Assembly (NCBI RefSeq): GCF_002080415.1
Contig: NZ_CP020474.1
Coordinates: forward strand, 2,741,501-2,805,500
DNA: 64,000 bases
Direction: 5' to 3'
Source: Roseovarius mucosus
GTDB lineage: Bacteria; Pseudomonadota; Alphaproteobacteria; Rhodobacterales; Rhodobacteraceae
Shown: piece by piece, positions 49,871 through 60,391 of the stretch
Layout: every line of letters starts with the position of its first letter
Numbering within the stretch: the stretch's first letter is position 1
Notes under the pieces: model-generated
Database searches by the model: none
What the model saw: only the letters and a program-made list of their open reading frames with translations
Told to the model about the DNA's origin: nothing
Translations under genes and position numbers: made by a program

Positions 49871-50125
49871 ATGGACATCCCCGACCTCAGCGCATTGGCC
49901 CAGCCCGGCACCACCCTTACCCTGCGGGTCACGCCCAAGGCCGCGCGCAATCGCATCGTTGCAGAGGATGACGTGCTGCGGGTCTATGTCACCACCGTGC
50001 CCGAGGATGGCAAGGCCAATGCCGCCGTTCAAAAACTCTTGGCCAAGGCGCTGGGCGTGCCAAAATCGCGCCTGACCCTGCTGCGCCGTCACACCAGCCG
50101 GGACAAGGTGTTTCAGGTCGACTGA
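49871..50125 (+). CDS. DUF167 (YggU) family protein
   Basis: An 84-residue protein with the family core LTLRVTPKAARNRIV, VYVTTVPEDGKANAAVQKLLAKALGVPKSRLTLLRRHTSRDKVFQV (landmark only). The function is unknown; the fold is small alpha/beta. The in-frame upstream extension lacks family similarity, so I start at MDIPDL. It overlaps the convergent glpR by 13 bp. Confidence 0.88.
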   Translation: MDIPDLSALAQPGTTLTLRVTPKAARNRIVAEDDVLRVYVTTVPEDGKANAAVQKLLAKALGVPKSRLTLLRRHTSRDKVFQVD

Positions 50126-50898
50126 CGCTTGCCCGGCATGCCCGCCACCTGCACCCGTGTTCCCCAACCAATACAGTTTTCAGCCAGAGGTGCCGGCAAG
50201 GGGCGGTCGGTAAAGACCTGATCGACATCGCGAATAGACCCAAGCCGCACCGGCGCACTGCGCTGGAATTTTGAGTGATCGGCGACCAGAAACACCTCGC
50301 GCGAGCGGTTGAGCAGGGTCTGGCCCACCACCACCTCTTGAATGTCGAAATCGAGCATGTCGCCGTCCTCGTCCAGCGCGGAACATCCCAGGATCGCGTA
50401 ATCGAACTTGAAATTCTCGATGGTGCGCGCGGTCAGATTGCCGACCAAGCCATTGTCGGATCGCCTGAGCGCGCCGCCTGCCACGACAATCTCGCAATCC
50501 TTGTTGGTCAGCAGGATTTGCGCCACGTTCATATTGTTGGTGACGACCATGAGGTTGCGATGATCCATCAATTCGCGCGCCACCGCTTCGGTCGTGGTGC
50601 CGATGTCCAGAAAGACCGAGGCATTATGTGGAATAGCCGCCGCACAGGCGCGGCCAATTGCGGCCTTGGCAGGCTCATTGAGGCGGCGGCGTTCCTCGTA
50701 CAGGATATTGGACACGCCAGACGGCAGGATTGCGCCGCCATGCACGCGCTCCAGCTTGCCCGCATTGGCAAGTTCGGTCAGGTCGCGGCGGATGGTTTGA
50801 ACGGTGACATCAAAGCGTTCTGCGAGATCCTCGACCGTAACCTTGCCTTCGGCGCGGGCAATTTCGAGAATGTCGGGTTGGCGAAAGCTCTGGGACAT
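50113..50898 (-). CDS. glpR: DeoR/GlpR-family repressor of the glycerol regulon
   Basis: A 261-residue regulator. The N-terminal HTH reads VTVEDLAERFDVTVQTIRRDL near 25-45, with RVHGGA after it. The effector domain has FLDIGTTTEAVARELM and NGLVGNLTARTIENFKFD, the sugar-phosphate-isomerase-like fold that binds glycerol 3-phosphate in GlpR. It is divergent from glpD across a 289-bp gap that carries several TTCGTTT-type repeats, likely its operators. An ATG much further upstream is excluded because that region is the regulatory gap. Confidence 0.9.
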   Translation of the reverse strand: MSQSFRQPDILEIARAEGKVTVEDLAERFDVTVQTIRRDLTELANAGKLERVHGGAILPSGVSNILYEERRRLNEPAKAAIGRACAAAIPHNASVFLDIGTTTEAVARELMDHRNLMVVTNNMNVAQILLTNKDCEIVVAGGALRRSDNGLVGNLTARTIENFKFDYAILGCSALDEDGDMLDFDIQEVVVGQTLLNRSREVFLVADHSKFQRSAPVRLGSIRDVDQVFTDRPLPAPLAENCIGWGTRVQVAGMPGKRQST

Positions 50899-50920: not shown

Positions 50921-51160
50921 GTTCGATTATGTTCGTTTTGGGGATCTCTGCAAGCAAAGCCTCCGCCGCGCTGCGGCATGGCGGACGAATCGACAGCCCG
51001 GATCGCCTGCTGGCGCGGTGTTGGGTGGCAAAATCCGTTCGTTCGCCCGTTGAAGTGAGGTGGGTTTGGAAAATTATTGAATAAAATCAATAGGTGTATT
51101 TTAAAAAGAAACAAAACGAACATTCATTCTTGACCGATGTGGTTAAAAAATGGTTCGTTT
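50921..51160. promoter_or_regulatory. glpR-glpD intergenic control region with TTCGTTT/AAACGAA repeats
   Basis: GTTCGATTAT and GTTCGTTTTG form a 10-bp direct repeat at 50921-50940, 25 bp before glpR. AAACGAA at 51114-51120 and TTCGTTT at 51154-51160 form an inverted pair just upstream of glpD. DeoR-type repressors bind such repeated TTCG-containing elements, so these are the expected GlpR operators. The AT-rich stretch around 51070-51110 probably contains the glpD promoter. Confidence 0.5.
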
Positions 51161-51187
51161 GCGCTCATCTTACGGTGGGAGGGGTGC

Positions 51188-52798
51188 GTGTCGCAGGGCC
51201 GCGGGAACACAGTGATCGACCTGTTCGTCATCGGCGGCGGCATCAACGGCTGTGGCATCGCCCGTGATGCGGCGGGGCGTGGATTGCGGGTCGAACTGGC
51301 CGAGATGAACGATCTCGCTTGGGCCACGTCAAGCGCGTCGACCAAGCTTTTCCATGGCGGCCTGCGCTATCTCGAGTATTTCGAAATCCGGCTGGTGCGC
51401 GAGGCGCTGATCGAGCGCGAAACGCTGCTGCGTGCGATGCCGCATATCAGCTGGCCCATGCGCTTTGTTCTGCCCTACCACCGCGATATGCGGTTCGAGG
51501 GCGAAACGCCGACCTCTCGCATCCTCAATCTGGTCATGCCATGGATGAAGGGGCGGCGGCCCGCTTGGCTGATCCGTCTGGGGCTGTTTCTCTACGATCA
51601 TCTTGGGGGCCGGAAAATCCTGCCCGCGACCTCTACGCTTGATCTGCGCAAGACGCCCGAGGGCGCGCCGCTCAAGGACAAGTTCACCCGCGCCTATGAA
51701 TATTCCGACTGCTGGATCGAGGATAGCCGCCTTGTCGTGCTCAATGCACGCGATGCTTCGGCGCGTGGTGCCCGCATCCGCACCCGCACCCGCGTGCAAT
51801 CAGCCGAGCGTGCGGGCGATCTGTGGCAGGTAACGCTCAAGGATCAGGAAACCGGTATCACCGAGGTGGTGCAGGCACGCGCGCTGGTCAATGCCGCCGG
51901 ACCTTGGGTCAAGGATGTGATCTCGGGCACGCTGCGCCTTAATTCTGCCGAGGGGGTGCGGCTGGTGCGTGGCAGCCATATCGTGACGCACCGCCTGTTT
52001 GACCATGACAAATGCTATTTCTTTCAGGGCACCGATGGGCGGATCATCTTTGCCATCCCCTATGAGGGGGATTTCACCCTGATCGGCACCACCGATGCCG
52101 AACATGGGCAGGCCGATAGCCGCCCGGAATGCACACCGGAAGAGGCTGAGTATCTCTGCCGCTTTGCATCCGAGTATTTCCAGACGCCCGTGACACGCGC
52201 CGATATCGTCTGGACCTATTCGGGCGTGCGCCCGCTTTATGACGACGGGGCCAAATCCGCCACCGCCGCCACCCGCGACTATGTGCTGACATTGGCCGAG
52301 GGGCCGGGCGCGCCGCTTTTGAACATCTTTGGCGGCAAGATCACCACCTACCGCAAATTGGCCGAGGCAGCGCTGGCCAAACTGCGGCCCTTCTTTCCAG
52401 AGGCGGGCGCGGATTGGACCGCAGGCGTCGCCCTGCCGGGGGGTAATTTCCCCGTTGACGGGTTTGACTCGCTGACAGAGAGTCTGCACCGGGCCTATCC
52501 GTTTCTGACGGCGGCAGGGGCGCGCCGCTTGGTGCGCGCCTATGGCACCGAGGCGCAGGATATTCTGGGCCAAGCGCGCGAAGCAGCCGATCTTGGCCCC
52601 GATTTCGGGGCCGGTTTGACCGGGGCCGAGGTGCGTTGGCAGATGGACCATGAATACGCCCGAACGGCGGCGGATGTGGTCTGGCGGCGCACCCGTCTGG
52701 GCCTCAAGATGACCGAGGCGCAGATTGCAGCGCTCGACGACTGGATGCAGCACGAGCGCGGCCTTGATCGGGCTGCCCCCGTGGCTGCCAAGGGATAA
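51188..52798 (+). CDS. glpD: Glycerol-3-phosphate dehydrogenase
   Basis: A 536-residue membrane-associated FAD enzyme oxidising glycerol 3-phosphate to dihydroxyacetone phosphate with electrons to quinone. FAD motif DLFVIGGGINGCGIARDAAGRG lies at the N-terminus (landmark), and SSASTKLFHGGLRYLEYFEIRLV, VNAAGPWV and FGGKITTYRKLAE are family signatures. I use the GTG start preceded by GGGAGGGG; an in-frame ATG 17 codons earlier lacks a good site. It is the first gene of the operon running to glpK. Confidence 0.94.
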   Translation: MSQGRGNTVIDLFVIGGGINGCGIARDAAGRGLRVELAEMNDLAWATSSASTKLFHGGLRYLEYFEIRLVREALIERETLLRAMPHISWPMRFVLPYHRDMRFEGETPTSRILNLVMPWMKGRRPAWLIRLGLFLYDHLGGRKILPATSTLDLRKTPEGAPLKDKFTRAYEYSDCWIEDSRLVVLNARDASARGARIRTRTRVQSAERAGDLWQVTLKDQETGITEVVQARALVNAAGPWVKDVISGTLRLNSAEGVRLVRGSHIVTHRLFDHDKCYFFQGTDGRIIFAIPYEGDFTLIGTTDAEHGQADSRPECTPEEAEYLCRFASEYFQTPVTRADIVWTYSGVRPLYDDGAKSATAATRDYVLTLAEGPGAPLLNIFGGKITTYRKLAEAALAKLRPFFPEAGADWTAGVALPGGNFPVDGFDSLTESLHRAYPFLTAAGARRLVRAYGTEAQDILGQAREAADLGPDFGAGLTGAEVRWQMDHEYARTAADVVWRRTRLGLKMTEAQIAALDDWMQHERGLDRAAPVAAKG

Positions 52799-52814: not shown

Positions 52815-53903
52815 ATGGCGCTGACACTCAAGGGGGTATCGAAACGTGTGAACGGGCAGGTGCATATTCACCCGACCGATCTCACGCTCGAGGCTGGCAC
52901 GATGAACGTGCTTCTGGGCCCGACCCTCTCGGGGAAAACCTCGCTCATGCGCTTGATGGCGGGGCTTGATGTGCCTGCAACAGGCCGCATTCTGTGGAAC
53001 GGCGCGGATGTGACGGGGATGCGCGTGCAGGATCGCCGCGTGGCCATGGTCTATCAGCAATTCATCAACTACCCGTCGATGACCGTCTACGACAACATCG
53101 CCTCGCCCCTGCGCCTGATGGGCAAATCCAGCGCCGAAATCGACGCAGCGGTCAAGAAAACCGCCGACCTCATGCAATTGTCCCCGATGCTGGCGCGCAA
53201 ACCGCTAGAGCTGTCCGGCGGCCAGCAACAGCGCTGCGCGCTGGCCCGCGCGCTGGTCAAAGAGGCGGGGCTGGTGCTGCTGGATGAGCCGCTGGCAAAT
53301 CTTGATTACAAGCTGCGCGAGGAATTGCGCGCGGAGATTCCCAAGATTTTCGAGGCTGCTGGCAGCATCTTTGTCTATGCCACAACCGAGCCGGAAGAGG
53401 CGCTGCTTTTGGGCGGCAATACCGCAACCCTGTGGGAGGGGCGTGTCACGCAGTTCGGCCCCACGCCGCTGGTCTACCGCCAACCGCGCGATGCCACGAC
53501 CGCGCGCGTCTTTAGCGATCCGCCGATGAATTTCCTCAGCGTCACCAAGACCGGCAACCGCATCCTCTTTGGCGATGGGCAATCGGCCGAGGCGCTGGGC
53601 AGCATGGCCGCTCTGGCGGACGGCACCTATACGGCGGGTTTCCGGCCCAATCATCTGGAACTTGATCGGCATACCGCCGATGCGCTGACCTTTGACACAC
53701 GCCTCAACGTGACCGAGATCACCGGGTCAGAAACCTTTGTGCATCTGGATCACCATGGCGAGCGCTGGGTGGGTCTTATCCACGGGGTGCGCGATCTGAA
53801 ACTGGGGGCGGCGTTGCGGGTCTATCTTGATCCGTCGCATGTCTATGTATTCGGGGCAGATGGCGCGCTGGTCGCACCCGCGCCCTATGCCGAGGCGGCG
53901 TGA
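52815..53903 (+). CDS. glpS: Glycerol ABC transporter ATPase GlpS (H-loop His missing)
   Basis: A 362-residue ATPase matching GlpS of the GlpSTPQUV glycerol importer of rhizobia. Walker A is GPTLSGKTS at 35-43, signature LSGGQQQR at 133-140, Walker B LVLLDEP at 153-159 with Glu158, D-loop LANLD. The switch histidine is replaced: the expected YVTHD is YATTE, with Thr191 in the His position. A C-terminal MalK-type regulatory domain follows. It is presumed to pair with GlpT, whose defects are complementary. The start follows GGAGGGAT closely, 16 bp after glpD. Confidence 0.9.
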   Translation: MALTLKGVSKRVNGQVHIHPTDLTLEAGTMNVLLGPTLSGKTSLMRLMAGLDVPATGRILWNGADVTGMRVQDRRVAMVYQQFINYPSMTVYDNIASPLRLMGKSSAEIDAAVKKTADLMQLSPMLARKPLELSGGQQQRCALARALVKEAGLVLLDEPLANLDYKLREELRAEIPKIFEAAGSIFVYATTEPEEALLLGGNTATLWEGRVTQFGPTPLVYRQPRDATTARVFSDPPMNFLSVTKTGNRILFGDGQSAEALGSMAALADGTYTAGFRPNHLELDRHTADALTFDTRLNVTEITGSETFVHLDHHGERWVGLIHGVRDLKLGAALRVYLDPSHVYVFGADGALVAPAPYAEAA

Positions 53904-53912
53904 GGGGGAACC

Positions 53913-55007
53913 ATGGCCAAGATCACGCTTGATAATCTCGCGCATAGCTACCTCTCGCGCCCCGCGTCCGAGGCGGATTTCGCGCTCAAGGAACTCAATC
54001 ACGTCTGGGGCGATGGCGAGGCTTACGCGCTCTTGGGGGCGTCAGGCTGTGGCAAGTCCACGCTGCTCAACATCATTTCAGGCCTCTTGCGCCCTAGCCA
54101 AGGCCGTATCCTCTTCAACGATCAGGACGTCACCGATCAGGCCACCGCCGCGCGCAACATTGCGCAGGTGTTCCAGTTTCCGGTGGTCTATGACACCATG
54201 ACCGTGCGCGACAATCTCGCGTTTCCGCTGCGCAATCGCGGGGCAGAGGCGTCTTATATCGCCGAGCGGGTTCAAACCATCGCCCGCATGATCGGGATGG
54301 AGGCAGAGCTAGGCCGCAAGGCGCGCGGCCTTACAGCAGATGCCAAGCAGAAAATCAGCCTTGGGCGCGGCATGGTGCGCGAAGACGTCAACGCGCTTCT
54401 CTTCGATGAACCGCTGACGGTGATCGACCCGCATATGAAATGGGAACTCAGAACGCAGCTCAAGGCGCTGCATCACGAGTTTGGCCATACGATGATCTAC
54501 GTCACCCACGATCAGACCGAGGCGCTGACCTTTGCCGACAAGGTGGTGGTCATGCATGACGGTCGAGTCGTGCAGATGGGCACCCCACAGGAACTCTTTG
54601 AGCGGCCAGAACATACATTCGTGGGCTATTTCATCGGCTCGCCGGGCATGAACCTGCTCGACGCGCAGGTGATGGGCAACAAGGCCGTGGTGCAGGGCGT
54701 CGAAATCCCGCTGGGTGCCGACTATGCCCGCCCCACAGGCCGGGTGCAAATCGGTGTGCGGCCGGAATTCGTGCGTCTGACGGCGGGGCCTGATGGCCTG
54801 CCAGTGACCGTGCGGCGGATCGAGGATGTGGGCCGTCACAAGATCGTCCGCTGCGAATTGGCCGGGGTTCAGATCAACGCCATTGCCGCCGAGGGCGCGC
54901 TGATTTCACCCGAAATGACGCGCCTCACCTTTGATCCGGCGGCGATCAACGTCTATGCCGATGACTGGCGCGTCACGCCGAAATCTCAGGCGCAGGAGGC
55001 CGCGTGA
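53913..55007 (+). CDS. glpT: Glycerol ABC transporter ATPase GlpT (LSGGQ signature degenerate)
   Basis: A 364-residue ATPase. Walker A GASGCGKST at 42-50, Walker B LLFDEP with Glu166 and the H-loop YVTHDQTEA with His199 are consensus. The signature is not: where LSGGQ is expected the sequence is LTADAKQK at 140-147, and the D-loop reads LTVID. It complements GlpS, which has a consensus signature but no H-loop His. A C-terminal OB/TOBE domain follows. The name follows the rhizobial ABC system; it is unrelated to the MFS G3P antiporter also called GlpT. Confidence 0.9.
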   Translation: MAKITLDNLAHSYLSRPASEADFALKELNHVWGDGEAYALLGASGCGKSTLLNIISGLLRPSQGRILFNDQDVTDQATAARNIAQVFQFPVVYDTMTVRDNLAFPLRNRGAEASYIAERVQTIARMIGMEAELGRKARGLTADAKQKISLGRGMVREDVNALLFDEPLTVIDPHMKWELRTQLKALHHEFGHTMIYVTHDQTEALTFADKVVVMHDGRVVQMGTPQELFERPEHTFVGYFIGSPGMNLLDAQVMGNKAVVQGVEIPLGADYARPTGRVQIGVRPEFVRLTAGPDGLPVTVRRIEDVGRHKIVRCELAGVQINAIAAEGALISPEMTRLTFDPAAINVYADDWRVTPKSQAQEAA

Positions 55008-55879
55008 TGGAGAAGACCGTCAATCAAAAGGCATGGTTCCTTGTCCTGCCTGTGCTGATCCTCGTGGCGTTCTCTGCCGTGATCCCGCTGATGACCGTGG
55101 TCAACTATTCGGTGCAGGATACCTTTGGAAACAACCAGTTCTTCTGGGCGGGGCTGGAGTGGTTCGAAGAAATGCTCGCCTCGGAACGCATGTGGGACGC
55201 GCTGCAACGGCAGGCGATCTTTTCCGCGATCATCCTTGCCATCGAGGTGCCGCTGGGCATTCTGGTGGCGCTCAATATGCCCAAGCGCGGCATCTGGGTG
55301 TCGGTCTGCCTTGTGCTCATGTCCTTGCCGCTCTTGATCCCGTGGAACGTGGTGGGCACCATTTGGCAAATCTTTGGCCGGGTCGATATCGGCCTCTTGG
55401 GGCATACGCTGGCGGCGCTGGGGGTGGACTATAACTATACTCAGGATGCGGTGGATGCTTGGGTGACGCTGATCGTGATGGATGTCTGGCACTGGACATC
55501 GCTGGTCGCCCTTCTGGCCTATGCCGGGCTGCAATCTATCCCCGACGCCTATTATCAGGCCGCCAAGATTGATCAGGCCAGCCGCTGGGCCGTGTTCCGC
55601 TATATCGAATTGCCCAAGATGACGGGGGTGCTGATGATCGCCATCCTCCTGCGCTTCATGGACAGTTTCATGATCTATACCGAGCCTTTCGTGGTCACGG
55701 GCGGCGGTCCGGGCAATGCCACGACGTTCCTCTCCATCGACCTCGTGAAAATGGCGCTCGGGCAGTTCGACCTCGGCCCAGCCGCCGCCTTTTCGATCAT
55801 GTATTTCCTCGTGATCCTGCTGATTTCATGGGTGTTTTACACCGTCATGGTCAATCTCGACAAACGGGAGGGCAAGTGA
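55007..55879 (+). CDS. glpP: Glycerol ABC transporter permease GlpP
   Basis: A 290-residue permease with six hydrophobic helices. The EAA-type coupling loop is YYQAAKIDQASRWAVFRYIELPKMTG near 185 (landmark). It belongs to the carbohydrate-uptake MalF-like group. The ATG overlaps the GlpT stop. It forms the membrane channel with GlpQ. Confidence 0.9.
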   Translation: MEKTVNQKAWFLVLPVLILVAFSAVIPLMTVVNYSVQDTFGNNQFFWAGLEWFEEMLASERMWDALQRQAIFSAIILAIEVPLGILVALNMPKRGIWVSVCLVLMSLPLLIPWNVVGTIWQIFGRVDIGLLGHTLAALGVDYNYTQDAVDAWVTLIVMDVWHWTSLVALLAYAGLQSIPDAYYQAAKIDQASRWAVFRYIELPKMTGVLMIAILLRFMDSFMIYTEPFVVTGGGPGNATTFLSIDLVKMALGQFDLGPAAAFSIMYFLVILLISWVFYTVMVNLDKREGK

Positions 55880-56721
55880 TGGCCGATCTGACCGCGACCC
55901 GCAGCACCACACGTGGCCTTGCCCTGCCGCGCGTCAACGTGGTGATGGTGCTTTACCTCGTGTTCCTGCTCTTGCCGATCTATTGGCTCGTGAACATGAG
56001 CTTCAAGACCAACGACGAGATCCTTGGCACCTTCTCGCTCTGGCCGCAGAGCCCGACGCTGGCGAATTATGCCACCATCCTCACCGATGCCAGCTGGTAT
56101 ATGGGCTATGTCAATTCGCTGATCTATGTGGTGATGAACACGGTTCTGTCGATTGCCGTGGCCCTGCCTGCCGCCTATGCGTTCTCGCGCTATAGTTTCT
56201 TGGGCGACAAACATCTCTTCTTCTGGCTTTTGACCAATCGGATGGCTCCGCCTGCGGTCTTTGCGCTGCCGTTCTTTCAGCTTTATTCAAGCGTGGGGTT
56301 GTTTGACACGCATATCGCCGTGGCGCTGGCGCATTGCCTCTTCAACGTGCCGCTGGCCGTGTGGATTCTAGAGGGGTTCATGCGCGGCGTCCCCAAAGAG
56401 ATCGACGAGACCGCCTATATCGACGGCTATTCCTTTGGGCGGTTTTTCGTCAAGATTTTCATGCCGTTGATTGCATCGGGCGTTGGGGTGGCCGCGTTCT
56501 TCTGCTTCATGTTCTCATGGGTGGAATTGCTCTTGTCCCGCACGCTGACCAGCGTCGATGCCAAGCCCATCGCCGCCACCATGACGCGCACGGTGTCGGC
56601 AAGCGGTCTCGATTGGGGCGTGCTCGCGGCGGCAGGGGTGCTCACCATCGTGCCGGGCGCGCTCGTGATCTATTTCGTGCGGAACTACATCGCCAAGGGC
56701 TTCGCCCTAGGCCGCGTCTGA
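55879..56721 (+). CDS. glpQ: Glycerol ABC transporter permease GlpQ
   Basis: A 280-residue MalG-like permease with six helices; the EAA loop is EIDETAYIDGYSFGRFFVKIFMP near 175. The start ATG overlaps the GlpP stop by one base. The name follows the GlpSTPQUV nomenclature and is not the periplasmic phosphodiesterase of enterobacteria. RTVSASGLDWGVLAAAGVLTIVPGALVIYFVRNYIAKGF is the family-typical C-terminus (landmark). Confidence 0.9.
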   Translation: MADLTATRSTTRGLALPRVNVVMVLYLVFLLLPIYWLVNMSFKTNDEILGTFSLWPQSPTLANYATILTDASWYMGYVNSLIYVVMNTVLSIAVALPAAYAFSRYSFLGDKHLFFWLLTNRMAPPAVFALPFFQLYSSVGLFDTHIAVALAHCLFNVPLAVWILEGFMRGVPKEIDETAYIDGYSFGRFFVKIFMPLIASGVGVAAFFCFMFSWVELLLSRTLTSVDAKPIAATMTRTVSASGLDWGVLAAAGVLTIVPGALVIYFVRNYIAKGFALGRV

Positions 56722-56734
56722 GGGAGGACTAAAC

Positions 56735-57007
56735 ATGGACTGGATGGCTTGGACACTCCCCACCGCGATCTTCTTCGGGGTCATCGCGGCGCTGCTCATC
56801 ACCTTCACGGTGCTGGCGATCAAATTCCCCGAAACCCCGCGTGTTGGCATCCTCAGGATCGAGACGACGCGCGGCGATCGTCTTTTCATCACGCTTCTCG
56901 GCTCGGCCTTTCTCAACCTGGCCTGGCTCGGAATTGTCGGCGCGAACCAGCCTTATGCGCTGATCCTCTGCCTGATCTATGCCGCGGCGGTGTTTCGCTG
57001 GGTTTAG
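56735..57007 (+). CDS. glpU: DUF2160 small membrane protein GlpU
   Basis: A 90-residue protein with three hydrophobic helices (PTAIFFGVIAALLITFTVLAI, LFITLLGSAFLNLAWLGIV, YALILCLIYAAAVFRWV). It occupies the glpU position between permeases and binding protein in the rhizobial operon. GGGAGGAC precedes the ATG. It may be an accessory subunit of the importer; no motif gives a mechanism. Confidence 0.85.
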   Translation: MDWMAWTLPTAIFFGVIAALLITFTVLAIKFPETPRVGILRIETTRGDRLFITLLGSAFLNLAWLGIVGANQPYALILCLIYAAAVFRWV

Positions 57008-57050: not shown

Positions 57051-58769
57051 ATGAACTTTCGAATGAAAACAACCACCGCGCTGGTGTCGCTGGGCCTGAT
57101 GGCCTCGCCTGCCTTCGCCGATATGGAGGCGGCAAAGGCGTTTCTTGATGCGGAAATCGGCGATCTGTCGTCGCTTACCCGCGCCGAGCAAGAGGCGGAA
57201 ATGCAGTGGTTCATCGACGCCGCTCAGCCCTTTTCCGGCATGGAAATCAAGGTTGTGTCGGAAACCATCGACACGCATAGCTACGAATCCAAGGTGCTGG
57301 CACCCGCCTTTACCGCCATCACCGGCATCAAGGTCACGCATGACCTCATCGGCGAAGGCGATGTGGTCGAAAAACTGCAAACCCAGATGCAGTCGGGCGA
57401 GAATATCTATGACGGCTATGTCAACGACAGTGACCTTATCGGCACCCATTGGCGGTATCAGCAGGTGCGCAACCTGACCGACTGGATGGCAGGCGAGGGC
57501 GCGGATGTGACCAGCCCGACGCTCGATATCGACGATTTCGTGGGCCTGTCGTTCACCACCGGCCCCGATGGCAAGGTCTATCAACTGCCAACCCAGCAAT
57601 TCGCTAACCTTTACTGGTTCCGCTACGATTGGTTCAACGACGACAAGAACAAGGCCGATTTCAAAGAGAAATACGGCTATGATCTGGGCGTTCCGGTCAA
57701 TTGGTCGGCCTATGAGGATATCGCCGAATTCTTTACCGGCCGTGACCTCAGCCATTTGGGCGTCGAGGGCGAAGTCTTTGGCAACATGGACTATGGCAAG
57801 AAAGACCCCAGCCTTGGCTGGCGCTATACCGACGCGTGGATGTCCATGGCCGGGATGGGCGACAAGGGTGAACCCAACGGCCTGCCGGTCGATGAATGGG
57901 GCATCCGTGTGAATGAAAATTCGCAGCCTGTGGGGTCCTGTGTCGCGCGTGGCGGTGCCACCAACAGTCCTGCGGCGGTCTATGCCGTCACCAAGGCGAT
58001 TGAGTGGCTTCAGAAATACTCGCCCCCTGCCGCCGCTGGCATGACCTTCTCTGAGGCGGGCCCAATCCCCGCGCAGGGCAACGTTGCGCAACAGATGTTC
58101 TGGTACACCGCCTTTACCGCAGCCTCGGTGAAACCCGACCTGCCGGTGATGAACGAAGACGGCACGCCGAAATGGCGCATGGCCCCCAGCCCACATGGCG
58201 TTTATTGGGAAGAGGGCATGAAAGTGGGCTATCAGGATGCCGGTAGCTGGACCCTGATGCAATCCACCCCCGTCGACCGTGCCAAAGCGGCGTGGCTCTA
58301 TGCGCAGTTCGTGACCTCGAAAACCGTGGATGTGAAAAAGGCCCACACCGGCCTCACCTTCATCCGCGAGTCGACGATCCAGCACGACAGCTTTACCGAG
58401 CGCGCCGACAAGCTGGGCGGCCTTGTGGAATTCTACCGCTCACCCGCGCGCGTTCAGTGGTCGCCCACCGGCACCAACGTGCCCGACTATCCGAAACTGG
58501 CACAGCTTTGGTGGCAGAATATCGGCGATGCCATGTCGGGTGCCAAAACCCCGCAAGAGGCGCTTGATGCGCTCTGCGCGGATCAAGAGCGCGTGCTTGA
58601 GCGGCTTGAGCGCGCTGGCATCCAAGGCGACATCGGCCCGAAACTCAACGAGGAAATGGACCCCGAGCATTGGCTGAGCCAGCCCGGTGCCCCCAAGGCC
58701 AAACTTGAGAACGAAGACGAAGAGCCGGTCACCATCGCCTATGACGAGTTGATCAAGTCCTGGCAGTAA
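57051..58769 (+). CDS. glpV: Glycerol ABC transporter substrate-binding protein GlpV
   Basis: A 572-residue periplasmic binding protein, larger than typical sugar-binding proteins but the usual size for GlpV. The signal peptide is MNFRMKTTTALVSLGLMASP with cleavage after AFA. Landmarks are LVNWSAYEDIAEFFTGRD-like sugar-binding loops near 220 and a Trp/Tyr-rich pocket (WMSMAGMGDKGEPNGLPVDEWG). GGGAGGGAAACC precedes the ATG. The ligand is inferred to be glycerol from the operon. Confidence 0.9.
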   Translation: MNFRMKTTTALVSLGLMASPAFADMEAAKAFLDAEIGDLSSLTRAEQEAEMQWFIDAAQPFSGMEIKVVSETIDTHSYESKVLAPAFTAITGIKVTHDLIGEGDVVEKLQTQMQSGENIYDGYVNDSDLIGTHWRYQQVRNLTDWMAGEGADVTSPTLDIDDFVGLSFTTGPDGKVYQLPTQQFANLYWFRYDWFNDDKNKADFKEKYGYDLGVPVNWSAYEDIAEFFTGRDLSHLGVEGEVFGNMDYGKKDPSLGWRYTDAWMSMAGMGDKGEPNGLPVDEWGIRVNENSQPVGSCVARGGATNSPAAVYAVTKAIEWLQKYSPPAAAGMTFSEAGPIPAQGNVAQQMFWYTAFTAASVKPDLPVMNEDGTPKWRMAPSPHGVYWEEGMKVGYQDAGSWTLMQSTPVDRAKAAWLYAQFVTSKTVDVKKAHTGLTFIRESTIQHDSFTERADKLGGLVEFYRSPARVQWSPTGTNVPDYPKLAQLWWQNIGDAMSGAKTPQEALDALCADQERVLERLERAGIQGDIGPKLNEEMDPEHWLSQPGAPKAKLENEDEEPVTIAYDELIKSWQ

Positions 58770-58811: not shown

Positions 58812-58878
58812 CGTCATCCTCGGGTCAAGCCTGAGGATGACGGGGTAGGGCGATCCTAGGGTCAAGCCCGAGGATGAC
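58812..58878. repeat. Two tandem copies of a REP-like palindrome (GTCATCCTCGGG...GAGGATGAC)
   Basis: The first copy (58812-58842) has arms CGTCATCCTC and GAGGATGACG around GGGTCAAGCCT. The second (58852-58878) has GATCCTAGGGTCAAGCCCGA then GGATGAC and is less symmetrical. Such GATCCTCGGG-type palindromes are common in intergenic DNA of Rhodobacteraceae. They lie between glpV and glpK and argue against a glpK start at 58874, which would fall inside the repeat. Confidence 0.7.
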
Positions 58879-58903
58879 CACTCAAACCTACGGACCCACT
58901 CTC

Positions 58904-60391
58904 ATGACCCATATCCTCGCTATCGACCAAGGCACCACGTCGAGTCGCGCGATCCTGTTCGATGCGCAGATGCGCATCACGGCCACGGCACAAGAGGAAT
59001 TCGCCCAGCATTTTCCGCAATCGGGCTGGGTCGAGCATGACGCGAATGATCTGTGGTCGACCACAGCGGGCACCTGCCGCGCGGTGATCGAAAAGGCCGG
59101 GCTGACCGGGGCCGACATCGCCGCCATCGGCATCACCAATCAACGCGAGACAACGGTGGTCTGGGATCGCCACACCGGGCAGGCCATTCACCGCGCGATT
59201 GTCTGGCAAGACCGGCGCACAGCAGAGTATTGCGCCGAATTGCGCGCCGCAGGCAACGAACCGATGGTGGCCGGGCGCACCGGGCTTTTGCTTGATCCTT
59301 ATTTTTCCGGAACAAAACTGCGCTGGATTCTCGATCATGTCGAGGGCGCGCGCGCCCGCGCCCAAGCGGGCGATCTGCTTTTTGGTACCGTCGATAGCTA
59401 TCTTATCTGGAAACTCACCGGCGGTCGCGTGCACGCAACCGACGCCACAAATGCCGCGCGCACCCTGCTTTACGATATCCGCAAAGGGCGCTGGAGCGCA
59501 ACGATCTGCGATCTCTTGGGCATCCCGATGCAAATGCTGCCTCAGGTGCGCGACAGCGCCGATGACTATGGCCACACCCGCGCCGATCTCTTTGGCCGCG
59601 AAATCCCCATTCGCGGTGTGGCGGGCGATCAGCAGGCGGCCACTGTGGGGCAGGCGTGCTTCAAGCCGGGGATGCTCAAATCCACCTATGGCACCGGCTG
59701 TTTTGCACTGCTCAACACGGGCGATACGCCGGTTGTCTCGCAAAACCGGCTGCTCACCACCATTGCCTATCAATTGGATGGCAAGCCGACCTATGCGCTC
59801 GAAGGCTCGATCTTTGTCGCGGGGGCCGTGGTGCAATGGCTGCGCGACGGGCTCAAGATGATCCGCCACGCCAGTGAAACGCAGCCCCTCGCCGAACAGG
59901 CCGACCCCAATCAAACAGTCGTTCTGGTGCCTGCGTTTACCGGGCTTGGCGCGCCCTATTGGCGGCCTGACTGTCGGGGGGCGATCTTTGGGCTTACCCG
60001 CAGCACCGGGCCTGCGGAACTGGCCCGTGCGGCGCTGGAAAGCGTGGGGTTCCAGACCCGCGATCTCTTGCGGGCGATGCGCGATGATTGGGCCGGGCAC
60101 GGGGCCGATGCGGTATTGCGGGTGGATGGCGGAATGAGCGCGTCTGACTGGGCCATGCAGTTCCTGTCAGACATTATCGACGCGCCTGTGGATCGTCCGC
60201 AAGTGCTGGAAACCACCGCGCTTGGGGCGGCTTGGCTGGCGGGGATGCAGATCGGTCTATACCCCGATCAGGCCGGATTTGCCGATACTTGGGCATTGGA
60301 ACAGCAGTTTCTGCCAAAGATGTCGACCGAGCTGCGCACCGCCAAGGTTGAGGGTTGGACACGCGCGGTTTCGGCCACACTCGCCTTTTAG
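58904..60391 (+). CDS. glpK: Glycerol kinase
   Basis: A 495-residue FGGY kinase forming glycerol 3-phosphate. Phosphate-1 motif [15 protein letters not shown] is at the N-terminus, WQDRRT and [15 protein letters not shown] follow, adenosine-motif [13 protein letters not shown] is near 265 and [15 protein letters not shown] near 410. The length is normal. It lacks an obvious ribosome-binding site close to the ATG. It is separated from glpV by a hairpin and REP-like repeats, so expression may differ from the importer. It completes glycerol uptake, phosphorylation and oxidation with glpD. Confidence 0.95.

Follow-up and report, generated by a model that had tools for sequence, protein, structure and literature searches.

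In the MalK homodimer the two ATP sites are equal, and the question whether each cycle of a type I importer requires two hydrolysis events has mostly been discussed on the basis of MalFGK2, in which one gene gives both sites and single-site mutants require mixed complexes. The exporters TAP, TM287/288, TmrAB and BmrCD combine one consensus site with one degenerate site, the defects being split between the subunits. Exporter sites of this degenerate kind have been amply documented (PMC7756269, available in part), and the loss of the catalytic Walker B glutamate at the degenerate site is given as an exporter hallmark in the accessible sections of PMC7544095. Among importers, the fused ATPases RbsA (ribose) and NupO (guanosine) each contain one degenerate site, according to the available text of PMC11466899, and the two-ATPase importer DppD/DppF of E. 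coli has been modelled as hydrolysing two ATP (PMC12136057, accessible in part). With respect to glycerol, a locus of Rhizobium leguminosarum VF39 has been tied to the use of this compound (Ding et al. 2012, as cited in the part of PMC7912956 at hand); the same text writes the locus glpSTPQUV and reports that derepression of a relative in Cupriavidus increases zinc and cadmium resistance. An asymmetry of the ATP sites of the glycerol importer is not mentioned in the sections of PMC7912956 available to us, and no report of asymmetry in the GlpS/GlpT family was found in the literature searched, which consisted largely of open papers, some of them accessible in part.

The window considered here, a stretch of 64,000 nucleotides from Roseovarius mucosus (contig NZ_CP020474.1), contains such a locus (Table 1). 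The genes follow the order glpD-S-T-P-Q-DUF2160-V-K with a divergent glpR, and the reading frames of GlpS and GlpT are intact and adjacent. Two ATPases, two permeases, a DUF2160 protein and a binding protein are found together in a glpR/glpD/glpK locus, which corresponds to the GlpSTPQUV-type gene set, and from this context we infer that the substrate of the importer is glycerol. A plasmid of R. leguminosarum WSM1325 displays the identical order glpD-S-T-P-Q-DUF2160-V-glpK with glpR next to glpD, on the same strand, whereas glpR of the window is divergent; its GlpS is 58% identical to that of the window and both its ATPases exhibit the pattern of motifs described below. In the window, the stop of glpT overlaps the start of glpP (55001-55012, GTGATGG) and a possible glpQ start at 55879 overlaps the stop of glpP, both overlaps pointing to coupled translation.

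Table 1. Genes and sequence motifs of the glp locus, in positions of the window; counts refer to the set of orthologous loci described in the text.
Feature	Position	Strand	Remarks
glpR, DeoR/GlpR-type repressor	50113..50898	-	DeoRC + HTH_DeoR; match from residue 76; start = Met76 of longest ORF
glpD, glycerol-3-phosphate dehydrogenase	51137..52798 (longest ORF; family match from 51215)	+	NCBIfam PRK12266 above cut-off
glpS, MalK-type ATPase, intact LSGGQ, degenerate cis motifs	52815..53903	+	ORF + translation; ABC_tran, weak TOBE_2
GlpS A-loop position, Val12	52848..52850	+	aromatic residue lost in 162/163
GlpS Walker A, GPTLSGKTS	52917..52943	+	not ABC consensus in 158/163
GlpS Arg46, MalK Arg47 position	52950..52952	+	R 156, K 6, Q 1 (n=163)
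GlpS signature LSGGQ (residues 133-137), intact, trans part of site 1	53211..53225	+	163/163
GlpS Walker B, Asp157-Glu158, kept	53283..53288	+	163/163
GlpS H-loop, Thr191 where His expected	53385..53387	+	Thr 158, Ser 5, His 0 (n=163)
glpT, MalK-type ATPase, intact cis motifs, degenerate signature and D-loop	53913..55007	+	intact ORF; MalK-like NBD, OB_MalK
GlpT A-loop, Tyr13	53949..53951	+	Tyr in 163/163
GlpT Walker A, GASGCGKST (residues 42-50), consensus, cis part of site 1	54036..54062	+	163/163
GlpT Asn53, MalK Arg47 position	54069..54071	+	Asn 162, Ser 1 (n=163)
GlpT signature LTADAKQ (residues 140-146), replacing LSGGQ	54330..54350	+	LSGG 0/163
GlpT Walker B, Asp165-Glu166	54405..54410	+	163/163
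GlpT D-loop TVID (residues 169-172)	54417..54428	+	TVID in 163/163
GlpT H-loop, His199	54507..54509	+	163/163
glpP, permease	55004..55879 (GTG start listed; ATG at 55007 possible)	+	BPD_transp_1
GlpP EAA loop QAAKIDQAS, without EAA glutamate	55556-55582	+	Gln in 162/162 loci with residues there
glpQ, permease	55879..56721 (probable ATG start inside longer ORF from 55828)	+	BPD_transp_1
GlpQ EAA loop ETAYIDGYS, glutamate kept	56407-56433	+	Glu in 162/162
DUF2160 small membrane protein (GlpU position)	56735..57007	+	PF09928 3e-35
glpV, candidate glycerol-binding protein	57051..58769 (start taken = Met25 of longest ORF)	+	SBP_bac_1
glpK, glycerol kinase	58874..60391 (longest ORF; family match from near 58907)	+	NCBIfam glycerol_kin above cut-off

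According to the nature of their domains, the proteins display a CUT1/MalK-type architecture, which consists of a MalK-like nucleotide-binding domain (NBD) with a C-terminal OB/TOBE domain, BPD_transp_1 permeases and an SBP_bac_1 binding protein. The OB_MalK domain was found in GlpT only and the TOBE_2 match of GlpS is weak. For both ATPases the best-scoring NCBIfam model is UgpC (PRK11650), whose cut-off of 432 bits is missed by GlpS (236.2 bits) as well as by GlpT (277.9 bits), and both proteins remain below the cut-off of every model among the best 25. The solved structures nearest to them in sequence belong to MalK-like ATPases of sugar importers, e.g., MalK, SugC and AlgS. Compared to MalFGK2 and to CUT1 systems of the UgpC type, the permeases and the binding protein are of like type, but the ATPases consist of two subunits with complementary defects and the EAA pair is asymmetric.

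Each composite ATP site was described by seven elements, five of them in cis (A-loop aromatic residue, Walker A, Q-loop Gln, Walker B DE, H-loop His) and two in trans (LSGG, D-loop). Site 1 associates the cis elements of GlpT with the trans elements of GlpS, and site 2 the cis elements of GlpS with the trans elements of GlpT. A preliminary description of this DNA had assigned correct residue numbers to LSGGQ, Walker B and Thr191 of GlpS and to Walker A, LTADAKQ, Walker B, the D-loop and His199 of GlpT. It had, however, considered the Walker A of GlpS as consensus, which is not the case: GPTLSGKTS fits a generic P-loop with Leu at the second Gly of GxxGxGK. It had also missed the loss of the A-loop aromatic residue in GlpS and the asymmetry of the membrane arms. 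The impairment it proposed for the second site is borne out but was understated, five elements deviating rather than two or three, and the Walker A and A-loop corrections strengthen the idea since the two changes concern one and the same composite site. All seven motifs are present in the PotA-like ATPase of the window, which is fully consensus, as had been claimed.

Orthologues came from two sources: a search by GlpS similarity, which gave 581 relatives of which 80 loci were kept, and a set of 398 genomes of Pseudomonadota, in which PF09928 is present in 85, including the genome of the window. After the removal of two duplicates, 163 distinct GlpS/GlpT pairs were retained, 82 picked by the DUF2160 domain, 80 picked otherwise, and the window itself. 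The two genes adjoin on one strand in all 164 fetched loci and in the window, with 3' ends 888-1157 bases apart. All seven elements of site 1 occur in 163/163 pairs, which upholds the earlier claim that the site made of the GlpT Walker A and His and the GlpS LSGGQ is fully consensus. Site 2 possesses two of the seven elements in 157 pairs and three in the remaining 6; taken one by one, its elements are kept in 1 (A-loop), 5 (ABC-consensus Walker A), 163 (Q-loop Gln Q81), 163 (DE) and none (His, LSGG and D-loop alike) of the 163 pairs. Two equivalent consensus sites, as in the CUT1/MalK type, were encountered in none of these pairs, site 2 having 2-3/7 elements in 163/163, and, assuming a heterodimer, one consensus and one degenerate composite site are a fixed feature of the family. 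Retention at random of His in GlpS or LSGGQ in GlpT, which the preliminary description regarded as fatal to its idea, was observed in 0/163 pairs. Given that His is absent from every GlpS and LSGG from every GlpT, with a complete site 1 in each pair, the pattern of complementary defects is not due to chance. Among the best 120 of about 8000 scored database relatives of the GlpT type, LSGG similarly occurs in 0/120 and His in 120/120.

The degenerate positions differ in their variability. In GlpS, the H-loop residue (0.20 bits) and the A-loop residue (0.63) lie below the column median of 1.31, and the GKT columns of Walker A, invariant in 163/163, have zero entropy; positions 2, 4, 5 and 9 of the same motif are variable (0.71-1.48 bits), position 4 being occupied by L, S, Q, G, T or N. 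Across the 163 orthologues, the GlpT signature varies around LTADxKQ, with variable positions 2 and 5 (0.97 and 1.59 bits), and zero entropy is found for its K and Q as well as for the D-loop TVID. The identity matrices of GlpS and GlpT correlate at 0.961, with 0/500 permutations as high, but this co-phylogeny was set aside as proof of a complex since any two genes of one operon would correlate. Three records (L071, L076, L021), with the names Arcobacter (66% identity) and Enemella (78%) among them, contain a GlpS close to those of the Rhodobacteraceae, as a result of either gene transfer or misbinned or contaminated assemblies. A plasmid variant from Aliiroseovarius (L224, 5124-11143) has a binding-protein gene ahead of glpS and neither glpD nor glpK in the stretch, and its GlpS contains Ser instead of Thr at the H-loop.

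It is quite probable, as far as motifs allow one to judge, that the ATPase under GlpP/GlpQ is an obligate GlpS:GlpT heterodimer, which hydrolyses ATP at one site and binds nucleotide at the other. The dimer would close on two nucleotides, hydrolysis occurring solely at site 1, where the A-loop, Walker A, Q-loop, Walker B and His199 of GlpT face the LSGGQ and D-loop of GlpS. Site 2, built up from the cis elements of GlpS and the LTADAKQ/TVID motifs of GlpT, would hold its nucleotide without turnover as a non-hydrolysing hinge or glue, and one hydrolysis event per cycle would drive import. Nucleotide binding at site 2 is expected because GKT and DE are invariant in GlpS. With respect to the exporters cited above, GlpST would represent an importer with a binding protein, and its degenerate site differs in keeping the Walker B Glu, so that the exporter hallmark is absent (DE in 163/163 GlpS), and in having Thr/Ser at the H-loop together with a changed A-loop and D-loop. 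To the view that a degenerate site is unusual for Type I importers it must be added that such sites have already been noted in the fused-NBD importers RbsA and NupO (PMC11466899, in its accessible part). These differ from GlpS/GlpT, which are separate MalK-type subunits keeping the Walker A Lys; in RbsA/NupO the NBDs are fused and the second Walker A is devoid of Lys.

The Walker B Glu, Q-loop Gln and GKT of GlpS, retained in 163/163 at variance with typical degenerate exporter sites, make a residual hydrolysis at site 2 possible. ATP could accordingly be hydrolysed at both composite sites, with a slow turnover at site 2 that follows a non-standard route and relies on the retained Walker B glutamate, a proposal to which the invariance of D157-E158 and Q81 (163/163) and the zero entropy of the GKT columns lend some weight; it is nevertheless unlikely, as the H-loop His, LSGG and a consensus D-loop are absent from site 2 in 163/163 pairs and the A-loop aromatic residue in 162/163, the H-loop being described as important for hydrolysis in the sections of PMC7756269 at hand. 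That GlpS and GlpT each act as homodimers, or also serve other permeases as MsmX does, seems very improbable despite the existence of multitask MalK-type ATPases (PMC7658222, available in part): by element count a GlpS dimer would have no A-loop, Walker A or His, and a GlpT dimer no signature or D-loop, so that neither homodimer contains a full site and a 7/7 site arises solely in the S:T pair, and the two genes are same-strand neighbours in 164/164 loci and in the window.

The controls consisted of 23 MalK-type ATPases (14 from the same genome and 9 from other fetched loci) scored as homodimers, 15 other ABC proteins having been dropped. Seven of seven elements were counted in 22 of the 23, and six in the remaining one (L175, with ISGG). 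In a further CUT1 operon of this genome (L184/L228), where two ATPase genes accompany a dihydroxyacetone kinase, both composite sites reach 7/7; this one case indicates that two ATPase genes alone do not bring asymmetry, and the idea that two-ATPase importers are asymmetric as such was discarded. In this operon (L228, 4099-15199; own genome C1:2916098-2927198), the two consensus ATPases and the dihydroxyacetone kinase precede genes for G6PD and an Edd/IlvD-family dehydratase.

The asymmetry extends to the membrane arms. The EAA glutamate presumably pairs with Arg47 of MalK; a literature search for this contact found nothing. At the MalK Arg47 position, R/K occurs in 162/163 GlpS and Arg is absent from 163/163 GlpT, the control ATPases having Arg in 20/23, Met in 2 and Lys in 1. 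The EAA Glu, missing in GlpP and kept in GlpQ, is found in both permeases of 11/11 CUT1-like control operons (L063, the second operon of L139, L165-L170, L228, L235 and L236), six of which (L165-L170) are orthologues of one another. It is also absent from one or both permeases in L202, L244 and L245, and its loss can therefore not be regarded as unique, the contrast holding with respect to the CUT1-like control operons. Since Arg and Glu are both absent from the GlpT-GlpP pair and both kept in the GlpS-GlpQ pair, GlpT may dock on GlpP and GlpS on GlpQ, a part of the proposal that is held more weakly than the heterodimer itself.

A cousin type of operon, with the order alcohol dehydrogenase-SBP-P-Q-N1-N2, occurs on plasmids of Ponticoccus (L222), Streptomyces (L229) and Tabrizicola (L232), all three annotated, and the N1-N2 pair itself and permease relatives were identified by BLASTP in unannotated Streptomyces (L230) and Ensifer (L231) loci. 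In the three annotated loci (L222 1520-10075, L229 587-9170, L232 289-9080), the alcohol dehydrogenase is of the Zn type and a sigma-54 or GAF/Fis-type regulator is present as well, while the annotation of their stretches lists no glp gene; the substrate is perhaps a short alcohol or polyol. N1 of L222 shares 38-41% identity with two GlpS, and N2 shares 48-53% with two GlpT. In 5/5 N1-N2 pairs, site 1 has 7/7 elements and site 2 two or three of 7, the MalK Arg47 position is Arg in N1 and Asn in N2, and the EAA Glu is absent from P and kept in Q. The best 120 of about 8000 scored N1 relatives have LSGGQ in 120/120, His in 0/120, an A-loop aromatic residue in none (2 gapped), a consensus Walker A in 9 and Arg at the MalK Arg47 position in 120/120, whereas the best 120 of about 8000 scored N2 relatives have LSGG in 0/120, His in 120/120 and Asn at that position in 119/120, one being devoid of the A-loop Tyr and one having TTID.

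In a tree built without the motif columns, GlpS with N1 and GlpT with N2 are each joined at an SH-aLRT of 100; this tree of 89 rows comes from a quick search, was rooted at the midpoint, includes several long branches and drew a warning for one long control row next to the GlpT branch. From this grouping and the shared defects, the asymmetry most likely arose before the split of the Glp and cousin systems. The cousin system with the same pattern extends to the Actinomycetota (Streptomyces), and the asymmetric pattern is, on the evidence of these motifs, wider than glycerol import. Glycerol was rejected as the cause of the asymmetry, the three annotated cousin operons adjoining an alcohol dehydrogenase with no glp gene annotated there. 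A mere drift of motifs after a relaxed requirement, leaving an asymmetry devoid of function, could account for the variability of GlpS Walker A position 4 and of GlpT signature positions 2 and 5 but is hardly credible in view of the invariant TVID and signature K-Q of GlpT, the restriction of the GlpS H-loop to Thr/Ser, and a pattern common to a cousin system at about 38-53% identity that reaches the Actinomycetota.

A relative of the DUF2160 protein was identified in 162/163 loci, the exception (L028) ending soon after glpT at a contig edge, and a literature search found no paper naming DUF2160. The protein may be a true third membrane subunit. A shorter paralogue occurs in L165-L170 (e.g., L165 7953-8195); the operon of L165, whose gene content was read, consists of an SBP, two permeases, an alcohol dehydrogenase, one consensus ATPase, a HAD protein and an FGGY kinase, suggesting that a small DUF2160-like subunit is common to polyol importers. 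Since this partial paralogue lies beside a single consensus ATPase and BLASTP (E up to 1e-3) found no relative of the window protein in the five cousin loci (L231 starting inside a permease gene), the DUF2160 protein is unlikely to be the cause of the ATPase split.

Returning to the obligate GlpS:GlpT heterodimer, a broader proposal can be formulated, with about an even chance of being right. GlpST and its cousins would belong to an ancient branch of MalK-type importers, distributed in Pseudomonadota and Actinomycetota and devoted to at least two substrates, whose obligate asymmetry would run from the ATP sites through to the coupling helices. The GlpT-GlpP arm would contain the only hydrolysing Walker site and have lost the Arg/Glu contact, the GlpS-GlpQ arm would keep this contact and only lend its LSGGQ, and one ATP would be hydrolysed per substrate. 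If so, the single-site design of exporters would also exist in MalK-type binding-protein-dependent importers, and nature would provide an importer in which two distinct genes encode the ATPases and one site is intact, so that each site could be mutated alone and the ATP cost per substrate measured.
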